This document shows positions 4,056 to 20,148 of a stretch of DNA of 64,000 bases, piece by piece; position 1 is the stretch's first letter, and every line of letters starts with the position of its first letter. The notes beneath the pieces were generated by a model. That model had not been told where the DNA came from. It was given only the letters and a program-made list of their open reading frames with translations, and ran no database searches. Source of the DNA: Thiomicrorhabdus indica (GTDB taxonomy: Bacteria > Pseudomonadota > Gammaproteobacteria > Thiomicrospirales > Thiomicrospiraceae); the NCBI RefSeq assembly GCF_004293625.1, contig NZ_CP033040.1, positions 1,612,001 through 1,676,000 on the forward strand, in the 5' to 3' direction. The position numbers and the translations under genes are program-made.

Positions 4056-4931
4056 CTATGATTCAATCCAAATCAAACTGGCCATACGGCCAGTTTTTCC
4101 ATCACCTTGATGACAGGCTTTACGATATGAATAAAACCGTTCATCGTCGTAGCTACACAAACCCGACAAGTAAACAGACTGAACACCACAGGCCTCTAGT
4201 TGCATTTGAGCAATCATAGGTAAATCTGCTAAATACTTACCTTCTTCAGAAAGACTTGGCTTAAATAGCGATTCATAATCTCTACACTCAGGGGCATCAA
4301 AACCCTTTCGGGTACAAGCACCCTCCTGGGCATCAACCCCCTTTCGGGTACAAGCACCGGCCGGTAAATGTTGAAACCTATCAAATACCTCCTGCCCAAC
4401 TTCAAAACGTTTTTGGCTGATAGCTGGTCCAATCCATGCCAAATAATCACCGGCCGGTAGGCTTTTAAGTGTTTTGGCTATAATTTGATTTTCCAGACCT
4501 TGCCAGCCTGCATGAATAGCACAGACTGTTTGCCCATGCGAATCACATAACAAGATTGGAATGCAATCCGCAGTCATCACCACACAAACAATACCTGATT
4601 TTTGTGTCCAACTGGCATCGGCAATCGGTGGTAAAACCGTATTTGTCGGCTGAGCGTCAATAGGCAAGCAAATGGATTTATCTGTGTGTTGTTGACTGAG
4701 CCAGAAAGGTTGAGAAGGCAACTGCAATACTTTTTGCAGCGCTTGTCTATTTTGTTCAACAGAATCAGAATGATCCCCAACATGAATCGCTAAATTAAAA
4801 AAATCATAATCTGAAGAAAATGAGTTTTGCGACTGGGAGTTTGGCGCAAAGCGTGTCGTCACACACGCTCTGATATTGGCAGGCATTGGCCAGTCTGGAA
4901 GGATTAAATTAGAAATATCTGAAATTTCCAT
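4056..4931 (-). CDS. purine nucleoside phosphorylase, YfiH/LACC1 family, with inserted repeat
   Basis: Multicopper-polyphenol-oxidase-fold protein (YfiH/PgeF type), known in the family for purine nucleoside cleavage and, in E. coli, peptidoglycan editing. Visible signatures: LSQQHTDK, VMTADCIPILLCDSHG, AIHAGWQGLE, and the C-terminal CSYDDERFYSYRK. Starts at the ATG at 4931; a TTG two codons earlier is possible. It follows rluD closely on the same strand, the same order as E. coli rluD-yfiH. Unusual: between HLPAG and the conserved YESLF region sits an insertion of two 12-residue repeats (GACTRKG...), beginning at an ACCGGCCGGT palindrome. Two other palindrome copies lie at 4449-4458 (in gene) and 4950-4959 (just upstream). 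Confidence 0.88.
   Translation of the reverse strand: MEISDISNLILPDWPMPANIRACVTTRFAPNSQSQNSFSSDYDFFNLAIHVGDHSDSVEQNRQALQKVLQLPSQPFWLSQQHTDKSICLPIDAQPTNTVLPPIADASWTQKSGIVCVVMTADCIPILLCDSHGQTVCAIHAGWQGLENQIIAKTLKSLPAGDYLAWIGPAISQKRFEVGQEVFDRFQHLPAGACTRKGVDAQEGACTRKGFDAPECRDYESLFKPSLSEEGKYLADLPMIAQMQLEACGVQSVYLSGLCSYDDERFYSYRKACHQGDGKTGRMASLIWIES
4292..4358 (-). repeat. 36-nt in-frame tandem repeat inside the yfiH-like gene
   Basis: Two copies (second incomplete) of a 36-nt unit starting at 4292 and 4328, differing at a few bases. Each encodes 12 residues of the form GACTRKG-V/F-DA-Q/P-E. The block abuts the ACCGGCCGGT palindrome at 4356-4365 and contains CCC-TTTC-GGG mini-hairpins. It reads as an in-frame insertion into the conserved enzyme. 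Confidence 0.75.
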
Positions 4932-4974
4932 AAGCAACTCTTAAACGCTACCGGCCGGTATCTTTGGTTGAGGT

Positions 4975-6033
4975 CTAATCAGGAATATCCTCATCCGTGA
5001 CATACTCAACCTGAATATCATTAGCGTATTCATAGTCATAATCGCTGTAGCCATTGAAAGAGGATTGGTACATCTCGAGGTCTTCTCTAAGAATATCGAC
5101 TAACTCCAACATATCGTCCGGCATTGGAGCGCGCCATTTCATGGTTTTTCCAGTTGATGGATGCGTAAAACTCAAAGCACCGGCATGCAATGCCTGACGA
5201 TTAAATTGACGTAAAAAATCGACAAATTCAGGATCCATTTTTTCAGGAATACGAAATTTCTTGCCATACACCGGATCACCTACCAACGGAAACCCTTGGT
5301 AAGTCATATGTACACGAATCTGATGTGTTCGCCCTGTTTCCAATTTCACGCGAATGCGACTGTGAGTTCGGAAGTGCTCCAATACGCGAAAATGACTGAC
5401 CGCAGGTTTGCCACCCATCGCACGCACTGCCATTTTCTTACGATCTTTCGGGTCACGTCCAATCGGTTTATCAACGGTTCCACCCTGTTTCACAATACCG
5501 ACTACCACCGCATCATAAATTCGTTCTACGGCATGACGTTGAAGTTGTTCCACCAAATGGGTTTGCGCTGGAACGGTTTTCGCCACAACCATTAAGCCAG
5601 AGGTATCTTTATCCAAACGATGAACAATCCCGGCTCTTGGCACTGCTCGTAAATTAGGGTAGTGAAACAAAAGCCCGTTGAGTAGTGTGCCATCTGGATT
5701 GCCAGCCCCTGGATGCACAACTAAACCGGCCGGTTTATTAATGACTAAAATCGAATCATCTTCATAAACAATGTTTAAATCAATATCCTGCGCTTCAGCA
5801 CGCTGGTCATCTTGCAACTCAATTTTTAACTCAACCGTTTCTCCACCTAAAACCGTATAGCGAGGTTTCTTCTGAATCTCTCCATCCAAAGTCAACATCC
5901 CGTCTTTTATTGCCTGCTGGATTCGATTACGCGAATAGTCTGGAAATGCATTCGACAGGACAACATCCAACCGTTGATTCATCGCACCGAGAGGAATAAT
6001 GGCTTGCAGAGTTTCAATATGGCTTGACGACAA
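4975..6033 (-). CDS. rluD: 23S rRNA pseudouridine synthase, RluD type
   Basis: A 352-residue RluA/RluD-family enzyme. It has an N-terminal S4 RNA-binding domain (residues 20-80, RLDVVLSNAFPDYSRNRIQQ) and a catalytic domain with the hallmark HRLDKDTSGLMVVAK containing the catalytic aspartate, then LETGRTHQIRVH. RluD modifies helix 69 of 23S rRNA. The start appears to be a TTG at 6033 preceded at good spacing by AAGGA. The C-terminal tail is longer and more acidic than usual. It is divergent from bamD and upstream of yfiH on the same strand, the same gene set as in E. coli. An ACCGGCCGGT copy at 5725-5734 encodes part of NKPAGLVV. Confidence 0.92.
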   Translation of the reverse strand: MSSSHIETLQAIIPLGAMNQRLDVVLSNAFPDYSRNRIQQAIKDGMLTLDGEIQKKPRYTVLGGETVELKIELQDDQRAEAQDIDLNIVYEDDSILVINKPAGLVVHPGAGNPDGTLLNGLLFHYPNLRAVPRAGIVHRLDKDTSGLMVVAKTVPAQTHLVEQLQRHAVERIYDAVVVGIVKQGGTVDKPIGRDPKDRKKMAVRAMGGKPAVSHFRVLEHFRTHSRIRVKLETGRTHQIRVHMTYQGFPLVGDPVYGKKFRIPEKMDPEFVDFLRQFNRQALHAGALSFTHPSTGKTMKWRAPMPDDMLELVDILREDLEMYQSSFNGYSDYDYEYANDIQVEYVTDEDIPD

Positions 6034-7070: not shown

Positions 7071-7108
7071 AAAAAGGATTGTAACCGGCCGGTTACAATC
7101 CTTTTTTT
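7071..7108. terminator. bidirectional terminator built on the ACCGGCCGGT palindrome
   Basis: A perfect 26-nt palindrome (7076-7101) has ACCGGCCGGT at its centre and is flanked by A runs on the left and seven Ts on the right. It can form an intrinsic terminator stem for both bamD (plus) and nadE (minus). Confidence 0.85.
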
Positions 7109-15171: not shown

Positions 15172-18100
15172 CTATAAGGTTTTAAGCCGTTTTTCCAAAC
15201 GCTGAATTGAAACCGGTTGAATGGTTTTCATTGGCTGAGAAAACAGTGACACACGTAACTCTTCCAGTAACCAACGAATTTCTATGACCTCTTCGTTTTC
15301 TTGATAAACCGGATCTTCGGCTAACGACCTAAACTTATCCAAAATAGGCATGATTTGACGAATAGCCACCTGATCTTTATTTGGGTCTTGGTCAATTTTT
15401 TCAAGGCGTTTTTGTAATGCACTCAAATATCTAGGAATTTGTAAAAACCATTTTTCGGGCGTTTTTCGGACAAAATCCTTAGAAATTAAGCCATCTAACT
15501 GAGCGCGAATATCAGCAATTGAGGCTAAACACCTTGGATTTACCCGGCCGGTTATTTGTTTTGCGACCTGCTGATGTGCTGTAAACAACTCTTTGAGATG
15601 TTTTGCAATCTCTTGCGCTTTCTCAATCCATTGCAGGCGCAAATTTTCTAGTGCCGTTTCAAATTCACCCTGCTTGCGTATTAACTCAGGATGCTCGACA
15701 ATTTTCAATAAAGCTCGATCAATCACCTGTTGAGTCAGTTCTTTACAAGTACCATAAGGTGCATAGCACAAACAGGCTTTTTGCATCGGAAGTTTCGCCT
15801 GTAGATATTTTTCCTTATCCTGCAACATTTGACGCAGCAATAAAATCACCGCTTCCCCATGCGCTTTGTTTGCTTGGCTTTCATCAGGAAAGACATCCAG
15901 CACAAATTTTAGATCTGAAATTTTAATATCTTTAACAGAATCTTTACCCTCAGGGGTACATGTACCGGCCGGTTGTTGAACGTTTAACGCTGGATAAACC
16001 ACCATTTGGGCACCATTATGTTTAATGGTTTTTTCCCGAGGTAGCTCTCCAAAATCCCACGTTTGAATCACTTGCATGTTTTTGGAAGATTGCGACTGAT
16101 GCTTTTGAATCTGCTTTTCAACTAAGTGCTGATAATCCACCTTCAGCTTCTCTAAATCAGTACTTTGTGCCAGTCGTTTTCCTTTGGCATCTTGTAATTC
16201 AAAAAATGGCTGTAAATACATTGGCAACTCGACTTGTGCAAAATCCTCCAAACGAACTCGAGTTGTCGCATTGGAAGGCGCACGTCGATTCAATGCCCAA
16301 ACCAGTTGATTCAAAAAAGGTACCGGCCGGTTATTTTCAGATTTATCCGCTGACATTTCCTGCAATACCAAATTAGCATAATGCGGTGCAGGAACAAATT
16401 GTTTACGCACCGATTTAGGCAACGATTTAATCAAATGCGCAATTTTTTCCGGTAGCAGTCCTGGAGTCAGCCACTCGAAAGACTGCGCATCTAACTGGTT
16501 CAATTGCGCTAATGAAATTTTAAATACAACGCCATCATTAACCTTTCCGGGTTCAAAGTGGTACTCCACTGGAATCGGGATTTGATTTTTAATTTGAACA
16601 GCATCTGGAAATTGCGCCAAACTGCCCGAATCCACCTCTTGTTTGAGAAGCTTCGACTTATCTAAAAATAACGATTTCCAGAGCGTCTCATTTTGCTTGG
16701 CTTTCTTCGCCCATTTTTCAAACGCTGGCTTAGAATAAATATGCGAGGGTATGCGTTCAGCATAAAACTGATAAATTTCTTCATCCTCTACCAAAAAGTC
16801 AGGGCGACGGAATTTAGCCTCTAAAGCTTCAATTTCTTGTACTAACTTCTGGTTGTGAACGAAAAATTCAACCTTTGAGAACAACTCTCCTTCGACTAAA
16901 GCGTGGCGCAGAAAAATCTTATGCGAATCCACTGGATTGATTGGGCCATAGTTACAATGGCGCCGGTTGACAATGGGTAAACCATAAAGAGTAATTGATT
17001 CAAATGCTCCAACTTGTCCGGTTTTTTTCTGCCAATGCGGATCGGTATAACTGTGCTTAATCAAATGCTTTGCGATTTTTTCAACCCAGCGAACATCAAT
17101 CACCGCATTGGTTCGTGCAAACAGCTTTGAGGTTTCAACCAATTCAGCAGACAACAGCCACTTCGGACGTTTTTTGAAAAGCACCGAACTCGGATGAATG
17201 AACAATTTTGTGTTCCGAGAACCCAAGTAGGATTTTTCATCCTCACGCATGGCAATATTTCCTAGAAGGCCACTCATTAAAGCGCGATGTAATGCCATGG
17301 AGTGCACATCGCTCAGACGTTCAGTGACTTCATTACCTTTTTTCACCTCTTCATATAAATGCAGTTCTCCAACCTTCATACCAATACGTTTTAAACTTTG
17401 GGTAAGCTGCATGGTCAAATCATGCCATTCGCGCATTCTTAAATAAGATAAAAAATTTGTCTTACATAATTTACGTAATTTGTTTTGTGAAAGATGACGT
17501 CGTTGATGCTCATAAAAACGCCACAAATTCAGATAAAAAATAAAATCCGAACGTTCATCTTCAAACTTTTTATGGGCTTGCCTTGCCGCTTGCATATTCG
17601 ATTCATTCAAATCACGAGGGTCTTGAATACTGAGCACACTAGCGACAATAATAACTTCTGCCAAAACACCATTTTCTTCACCCGACAACACCATTTTGGC
17701 AACACTCGGATCAATTGGCAGCTTGGCAATTTTTCGTCCTTCCGGTGTTAAACGACGCTGTTCATCCAAAGCACCAATTTCTTGCAGTGTTCGATAACCA
17801 TCGTTAACTGCTTTATCATTCGGCGGCTCGATAAATGGAAAACTTTTAACCTTACCTAATCGCAACTGCGCCATCGTTAACACGACATTCGCTAAAGAGG
17901 TTCGATGAATTTCCGGCGAGGTAAATTCTGGTCGGGATTTAAAGTCTTCTTCATCATAAAGTCGAATACAAATCCCTTCTGAAACACGACCACAGCGTCC
18001 TTTTCTCTGATTTGCCGAAGCTTGAGATATTTTTTCAATTGGCAGACGTTGAACTTTGGAGCGAACCGAATAGCGACTGATGCGAACCTGACCGGGATCG

Positions 18101-19233
18101 ATGACATACTTTATTCCCGGAACGGTCAAAGAGGTTTCAGCCACGTTGGTACTTAAAATAATTCGACGTTTTTGTGAAAGCTCGAACACTTTATTTTGCT
18201 CGGCCATCGACAAACGCGCATAAAGCGGAACAATTTCAGTATTTTTCAGATTCCGTTTGCGAAGCGCTTCAGCGGTTTCTTTGATGTCGCGCTCACCTAC
18301 TTGGAAAACCAAAATATCGCCAAATGAATCCTCTGAACCTAATTCATCGACTGCATCCACAATGGCGGTAGTCATATCCTGTTCAATTTGATTTCCGGCA
18401 TCATCTTCATAGCTTGCCAAAGGTCGATAACGGACTTCAACAGGATAGGTTCTTCCAGATACTTCAACAACTGGTGGGCGCTTCCCATTAATCGTAAAAT
18501 GCTCGGCAAAACGCTCAGTATCAATTGTTGCAGACGTCACAATGACTTTTAAATCCGGTCTTTTGGGCAAAAGTTGCTTTAAAATCCCCAACAGAAAATC
18601 GATATTAAGGCTGCGTTCATGCGCCTCATCGATAATAATTGTGTCGTATTGATTCAGGAATTTATCGTTTTGGATTTCAGCCAACAAAATCCCATCAGTC
18701 ATCACTTTAATCAGAGAATGCTCTTTAGACTGCTCTATAAAACGCACTTGGTAACCGACTAGGTCACCGATTTTACTGCCGAGTTCTTCAGAAATTCGCT
18801 CCGCAACAGAACGTGCGGCTAATCTTCTTGGCTGTGTACAACCAATCCTTCCGAAGACACCTAAACCAGCCTCCAAACATATTTTTGGGATTTGCGTAGT
18901 TTTCCCAGAACCAGTTTCACCGGCAATCACAACCACTTGATTTTCTTGAATTAAGCGAAGTAAATCGTCTTTTTTGGCTGCTACCGGCAGTTTTTCATCG
19001 TATCCAATCACAGGAACACGATTTTTTCGCAATTGCGCAATTTCAATAGATTTCTTTAATCTTTGATTCCAGCTTACCCAATGCTCACTGGTCTGTTTTG
19101 CATTTTGCAATTTCTTATCTTTATAAAATTTTGATAGAAAAAATCTATCAGAAATCATTGCATCATTAATATTTTGCACTGAATTTACTGCAGATTGGGT
19201 GTTTTCATCGATTGACATAATTTGACTGGTCAC
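15172..19233 (-). CDS. hrpA: ATP-dependent RNA helicase HrpA
   Basis: A 1353-residue DEAH-box helicase of the HrpA family, which in E. coli acts on mRNA and stalled ribosomes. Motifs seen: AGETGSGKTTQIPK (Walker A), DEAHERS, VTSATIDT, STNVAETSLTVPG, and QRKGRCGRVSEG. HA2 and OB-like regions and the long HrpA-specific C-terminal extension follow. Start is a GTG at 19233; an ATG at 19218 is an alternative. Unusual: three palindrome-related sites lie in the C-terminal half (15543-15552 near-match, 15964-15973, 16322-16331), one adding PAGTCTPEGKDS in a variable region. Confidence 0.94.
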   Translation of the reverse strand: MTSQIMSIDENTQSAVNSVQNINDAMISDRFFLSKFYKDKKLQNAKQTSEHWVSWNQRLKKSIEIAQLRKNRVPVIGYDEKLPVAAKKDDLLRLIQENQVVVIAGETGSGKTTQIPKICLEAGLGVFGRIGCTQPRRLAARSVAERISEELGSKIGDLVGYQVRFIEQSKEHSLIKVMTDGILLAEIQNDKFLNQYDTIIIDEAHERSLNIDFLLGILKQLLPKRPDLKVIVTSATIDTERFAEHFTINGKRPPVVEVSGRTYPVEVRYRPLASYEDDAGNQIEQDMTTAIVDAVDELGSEDSFGDILVFQVGERDIKETAEALRKRNLKNTEIVPLYARLSMAEQNKVFELSQKRRIILSTNVAETSLTVPGIKYVIDPGQVRISRYSVRSKVQRLPIEKISQASANQRKGRCGRVSEGICIRLYDEEDFKSRPEFTSPEIHRTSLANVVLTMAQLRLGKVKSFPFIEPPNDKAVNDGYRTLQEIGALDEQRRLTPEGRKIAKLPIDPSVAKMVLSGEENGVLAEVIIVASVLSIQDPRDLNESNMQAARQAHKKFEDERSDFIFYLNLWRFYEHQRRHLSQNKLRKLCKTNFLSYLRMREWHDLTMQLTQSLKRIGMKVGELHLYEEVKKGNEVTERLSDVHSMALHRALMSGLLGNIAMREDEKSYLGSRNTKLFIHPSSVLFKKRPKWLLSAELVETSKLFARTNAVIDVRWVEKIAKHLIKHSYTDPHWQKKTGQVGAFESITLYGLPIVNRRHCNYGPINPVDSHKIFLRHALVEGELFSKVEFFVHNQKLVQEIEALEAKFRRPDFLVEDEEIYQFYAERIPSHIYSKPAFEKWAKKAKQNETLWKSLFLDKSKLLKQEVDSGSLAQFPDAVQIKNQIPIPVEYHFEPGKVNDGVVFKISLAQLNQLDAQSFEWLTPGLLPEKIAHLIKSLPKSVRKQFVPAPHYANLVLQEMSADKSENNRPVPFLNQLVWALNRRAPSNATTRVRLEDFAQVELPMYLQPFFELQDAKGKRLAQSTDLEKLKVDYQHLVEKQIQKHQSQSSKNMQVIQTWDFGELPREKTIKHNGAQMVVYPALNVQQPAGTCTPEGKDSVKDIKISDLKFVLDVFPDESQANKAHGEAVILLLRQMLQDKEKYLQAKLPMQKACLCYAPYGTCKELTQQVIDRALLKIVEHPELIRKQGEFETALENLRLQWIEKAQEIAKHLKELFTAHQQVAKQITGRVNPRCLASIADIRAQLDGLISKDFVRKTPEKWFLQIPRYLSALQKRLEKIDQDPNKDQVAIRQIMPILDKFRSLAEDPVYQENEEVIEIRWLLEELRVSLFSQPMKTIQPVSIQRLEKRLKTL

Positions 19234-20110: not shown

Positions 20111-20148
20111 AAGCCCAAGTTTACCGGCCGGTAAACCTGGGCTTTTTT
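20111..20148. terminator. terminator with ACCGGCCGGT at the stem centre
   Basis: An inverted repeat at 20113-20142 (GCCCA arms around GTTTACCGGCCGGTAAAC) with A run before and T run after. It can terminate the persulfide dioxygenase gene on plus and slyD on minus. Confidence 0.82.

Follow-up and report, generated by a model that had tools for sequence, protein, structure and literature searches.

An iterated palindrome in Thiomicrorhabdus indica, the 18-bp arrays that adjoin it and an apparent second dialect in related genomes

The yfiH and hrpA loci

The window, the whole 64,000-nucleotide stretch of Thiomicrorhabdus indica DNA analysed here, contains a yfiH-like gene on the minus strand (positions 4056 to 4937), whose product is a Cu-oxidase_4/laccase-domain protein (PF02578, E 2.4e-59). 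The reading frame is intact, solved YfiH structures are near relatives of the product, and H84, C125 and H142 are invariant in an alignment of 26 YfiH sequences. The gene contains two palindromes. The first, ACCGGCCGGT (4356 to 4365; translated as PAG; recognised from window and genome counts), abuts without a gap a 72 bp array (4284 to 4355) of four in-register 18-nt units on the minus strand: unit 1, GCTTGTACCCGAAAGGGG (4338 to 4355), unit 2, GTTGATGCCCAGGAGGGT (4320 to 4337), unit 3, GCTTGTACCCGAAAGGGT (4302 to 4319), and unit 4, TTTGATGCCCCTGAGTGT (4284 to 4301). All four are delimited by unit alignment, supplemented by the composite pattern for unit 1 and by similarity for unit 3. The second palindrome (4449 to 4458) has no array and, in the protein alignment, no net insertion compared with congeners.

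The original prediction placed a palindrome-linked repeat at exactly 4284 to 4365 and described it as two 36-nt units of 12 residues each. The extra 24 amino acids are present, but the true period is four units of 18 nt; unit 1 resembles unit 3 and unit 2 resembles unit 4, which produces the apparent 36-nt period. As was also anticipated, alignment of homologues reveals an insertion: the extra YfiH residues are absent from all 29 of the congeneric YfiH proteins aligned, and in a pairwise homologue alignment the gap is 25 residues for the 24 encoded by the array. In a structure model based on the 26-sequence alignment (mean pLDDT 85.5) the inserted segment is predicted to be a loop (pLDDT about 45-62), flanked by two helices that are themselves well predicted. 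In a folding test of the yfiH array a stable hairpin was unsupported (z 0.25) for such a diverged copy.

The similar arrangement proposed for hrpA (15175 to 19233, minus strand; a DEAH helicase with DUF3418 by family search) was also found, with the palindrome at 15964 to 15973, located by pattern counts, and one unit, ACATGTACCCCTGAGGGT, on the minus strand at 15946 to 15963, assigned by the composite pattern and unit alignment. Aligned hrpA homologues do not have the extra residues; 20 residues at the composite are absent from congeners, while the single unit encodes only 6 amino acids. The array of a HAD phosphatase is an insertion too, with a 15-aa gap in the homologue against an 18-aa array.

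Anatomy and distribution of the composite

Genome-wide, the composite is ACCGGCCGGT followed by (ACTTGTGCCC-N4-GGGT)1-4, with the units head to tail as in a minisatellite, and occurs at ten loci (reversed-pattern control 0). Eight of these were recovered by searching for the palindrome and a unit with 3 mismatches at most (control 0) and two more, more diverged or with a 1-nt spacer, by similarity search. Besides yfiH (genome position 1,616.3 kb, 4 units) and hrpA (1,627.9 kb, 1 unit), the arrays lie in a HAD hydrolase (310.5 kb, 3 units), at the C-terminal end of a photolyase-like protein (578.3 kb, 3 units), in a glycosyltransferase of family 9 (2,199.5 kb, 1 unit), at 593.3 kb (2 units) and 1,809.5 kb (1 unit), and, where there is no long ORF, at 371.2 kb (1 unit), 2,087.4 kb (3 units) and 2,824.8 kb (1 unit). 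The larger unit originally envisaged, the palindrome with TGTACCC-N4-GGG, holds in outline only. The literal pattern is found 5 times in the genome against 3 in the control; the commoner form is TGTGCCC, so the literal pattern was too strict and stayed near background. With the consensus revised to GTRCCC-N4-GGG, the composite recurs at the ten loci in whole codons.

At all seven array loci inside ORFs the palindrome is translated as PAG, and the arrays have lengthened housekeeping enzymes by 6 to 24 residues, leaving the frame intact. The 18-bp unit is a multiple of three and stop-free in all six frames, so that genes tolerate it as a surface loop. Array length is n x 18 at intergenic loci as well.

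Arrays accompany only 10 of the 1,025 palindromes in the genome (about 1%) and are always on one side. The insertion point is identical to the base in nine loci, the tenth having a 1-nt spacer, and units distant from palindromes are lacking save for a single match at 433.6 kb that looks like chance. In the 20 units compared, positions 6, 8, 9 and 17 never vary and the N4 spacer does. At the five loci whose arms are perfect, pairwise differences are 0 in the arms and 0.45 per site in the spacer. The array reads as an alternation of GTRCCC-N4-GGGTAC-TT-GTRCCC, the palindrome matches the outline ACC-GGCC-GGT, and two tandem consensus units self-fold (z -3.7).

Plain copying would not predict identical arms around spacers that differ at 45% of sites; the pattern suggests that the arms are under selection or that a recombinase acts, and conserved arms with a variable spacer may leave room for a recombinase or binding protein. 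A site-specific mobile repeat is therefore one explanation of the composite: a recombinase or HUH-type transposase would read the palindrome hairpin and insert GTRCCC-N4-GGGTAC units, the arms being its binding sites and N4 the crossover spacer. The base-identical insertion point and the near confinement of units to palindromes fit this explanation, as do the conserved arms. We nevertheless consider it improbable, given that the tandem units are one-sided and lack target duplications, and that there are ten loci only. Neither terminal inverted repeats nor target-site duplications, as expected of a MITE or IS, were seen when the flanks of the ten loci were read by eye. No mobility gene came to light, and no outside source of the array was found in viral contigs, phages or plasmids. 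In five other genomes of the family there are scattered single matches to the array, none of them tandem or beside a palindrome, and the other tandem arrays adjoining palindromes in congeners amount to one unrelated pentamer-like run (genome G001).

The palindrome at array-free sites

The palindrome ACCGGCCGGT occurs 23 times in the window, against 0 expected, and its 1,025 genomic copies compare with 1 for the reversed-pattern control; the statistics are based on the window and twenty 20-kb stretches (464 kb), plus whole-genome pattern counts. These numbers, with those of the composite, exclude a chance origin. The 464 kb contain 173 palindromes; 98 lie within ORFs of 100 aa or more (longest-ORF model), and 65 of these 98 are in the PAG frame. 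In clear alignments, array-free palindromes replace residues without gaps (RluD at 5725, L157_1099, L164_690 and L165_8900), for example KPAG in place of KPPG or KPVG in RluD, and TGR in place of ISR; some palindrome-locus alignments are poor, and residue replacement is thus a tendency of the clear cases. One-off variants of the palindrome are biased to its outer bases, with 28 at each end base and 0 at the centre.

The palindrome had been proposed to be mobile and to insert in frame into coding DNA. Insertion of 10 bp would shift the frame and, in the clear alignments, the array-free copies align gaplessly, so the palindrome itself was rejected as the insert; only the 18-nt array is inserted. 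A related possibility, likewise put forward originally, is that palindrome and array together form a mobile palindromic element that enters genes in frame, in the manner of the Rickettsia palindromic elements (RPEs). The composite is indeed in frame in seven ORFs and appears as an insertion against homologues. This explanation is very unlikely, however, as array-free palindromes are about 100 times commoner and do not behave as insertions, the palindrome length is no multiple of three, and the intergenic arrays also measure n x 18.

Two palindromes in the window (7084 to 7093 and 20123 to 20132) are central in long terminator-like hairpins followed by T runs, with 14 and 15 extra paired bases, respectively. 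The 20-kb stretch at genome positions 1,820,001 to 1,840,000 has 1 palindrome, against an average of about seven, and is possibly a recently acquired region.

Displacement of the A/T flank

Array-free palindromes have AAAWTTT on both sides. At the array loci the AAAWTTT flank is found after the array, with a mean score of 3.0 compared with -2.0 at the palindrome edge and -1.6 at random positions; three of the array loci belong to the sample behind the flank profile. Ten positions were resampled 20,000 times and never scored as high, also when they were drawn only after GGGT. In yfiH the flank, AGAGATTA, has moved to the far end of the array (4276 to 4283, minus strand), scoring 3.2 there and -4.1 at the palindrome edge. 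The array therefore separates an ordinary palindrome site from its usual flank.

Palindromes in related genomes

The high copy number of ACCGGCCGGT is particular to this genome: the 31 other Thiomicrorhabdus genomes have 0-15 copies and the remaining genomes of the family no more than 14. A different palindrome, CCAGGCCTGG (full form ACCAGGCCTGGT with AAAWTTT), is present in 106-856 copies in 27 of the 63 family genomes (for example L204-L223, from G011, and L234-L271); its reversed control gives 0-2, and this genome has zero copies. The flank GGT-AAAWTTT is common to both. Many genomes of the family have neither palindrome at high number. In a YfiH tree, a single-gene phylogeny with weak deep support, the genomes with the CCAGG palindrome fall mostly in clades and this species stands alone on a long branch; on the 27 genomes with at least 100 copies and within the limits of that tree, the dialects follow phylogeny, as those of DNA uptake sequences (DUS/USS) do.

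The two palindromes look like dialects of one iterated palindrome. No description of either motif in these bacteria was found in a partial literature search, and the different version in many relatives suggests a previously unreported DNA tag. The family-wide palindrome and its dialects are of greater importance than the array composite.

Several further observations concern individual genomes. In G004 (L238-L239), G027 (L256-L257) and G026 (L260-L261) the core is CAGGCCTG, with outer bases as in AACAGGCCTG and AGCAGGCCTG, possibly a third dialect. In G011, CCGG occurs 17 times per 100 kb against about 157 expected, a strong depletion, and is more mildly depleted in G007 and G029; the depletion in G011 suggests avoidance of a restriction site. 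In G031 (L252-L253), 10-mers such as CCTCTTATAA and GAGGTTTATA reach 15 occurrences in 40 kb and may belong to a repeat array.

Proposed explanation

We propose a reading in two layers, to which we give about an even chance: a palindrome dialect of the family, with an uptake-type process as first choice, and arrays copied between palindrome sites by template switching. In the first layer, ACCGGCCGGT with its AAAWTTT flanks would be the dialect in which this species carries a highly iterated, family-wide palindrome; many relatives use ACCAGGCCTGGT. The palindrome would gain new positions largely by base substitution and be kept by some sequence-specific process, for which our first choice is DNA uptake bias in natural transformation and our second a methylation or repair bias as proposed for HIP1.

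In a rival explanation, a DNA methyltransferase coupled to mismatch repair makes and keeps the palindrome, as proposed for HIP1, the arrays being incidental tandem duplications driven by hairpins. Such an origin would suit a perfect GC-rich palindrome for which relatives have alternates, and one-off variants fall preferentially at the outer bases, as reported for HIP1. A profile search for PF00145, the C5 methyltransferase family, nevertheless gave no match in this genome, nor is there one in several CCAGG genomes (G002, G006, G028 and G029); the AAAWTTT flanks reach well past a methylation site, and one unit sequence at ten loci is left unexplained. We regard this rival, too, as unlikely. HIP1 being tied to methyltransferases and PF00145 being absent here, the uptake-type process is preferred with moderate confidence. 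A simple regular-expression search for prepilin-like and dprA-like ORFs found none in 464 kb, a result that carries no weight either way.

In the second layer of the preferred reading, one to four 18-bp units (ACTTGTGCCC-N4-GGGT) would have been added at about 1% of sites, exactly between palindrome and A/T flank. For one unit to be present at ten unrelated loci, it must have been copied from locus to locus. Since the arrays start after CCGGT|A and end with GGGT|A before the same flank, copying via shared ends is the likeliest route and would yield exact boundaries with no need of a dedicated enzyme. Template switching or short-homology conversion would move the units among palindrome sites, with entry via the shared palindrome and exit via the shared GGTA-AAWTTT, and tandem slippage or hairpin misalignment would then alter unit number. 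No copying intermediate was seen. More tentatively, these sulfur-oxidising gammaproteobacteria may mark self-DNA with palindromic tags in lineage-specific dialects (ACCAGGCCTGGT or ACCGGCCGGT, each flanked on either side by AAAWTTT); in one species the tag sites may be docking points where an 18-bp unit with conserved arms and a variable spacer is copied between loci and has grown in tandem within genes.

Should the palindrome serve as an uptake tag, it would to our knowledge have no precedent in this family and no palindromic counterpart elsewhere, and would illustrate how a dialect switches from one related species to the next. The arrays represent a rare case of short sequences that spread from locus to locus, at fixed docking points, with no transposase in evidence.

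Comparison with known systems

The closest parallels in copy number and dialect are the DUS/USS of the Neisseriaceae and Pasteurellaceae, which likewise have an exact, over-represented short core of around a thousand copies in each genome, dialects that exclude one another and broadly track clades, and some copies within the stems of terminators. In the extended Pasteurellaceae uptake signals, too, GGT is followed by an A/T tract (PMC12616744). By contrast, described DUS/USS cores are non-palindromic, whereas both dialects here are perfect palindromes, with the A/T tract on both sides; we therefore term them DUS-like and not DUS. The side arrays fall outside the DUS/USS descriptions compared.

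HIP1 and its alternates in cyanobacteria, for which maintenance by methyltransferase or repair bias has been proposed (PMC4390886), are also perfect GC-rich palindromes iterated hundreds to thousands of times, with alternates that swap between lineages and one-off variants at the ends. The present palindrome differs in having no C5 methyltransferase match, in its longer, A/T-flanked site, in its phylum and in its arrays.

The neisserial dRS3 element, from a genome where uptake sequences abound, has short inverted-repeat arms round a variable spacer. The arrays recall it in layout but have another sequence and spacer, and are always fused to the iterated palindrome. The RPEs, about 150 bp long and inserted whole (PMC10969869), share with the composite a palindromic repeat sequence in frame within unrelated genes; here, unlike in Rickettsia, only the 18-bp tandem unit is inserted, at a seemingly pre-existing palindrome.
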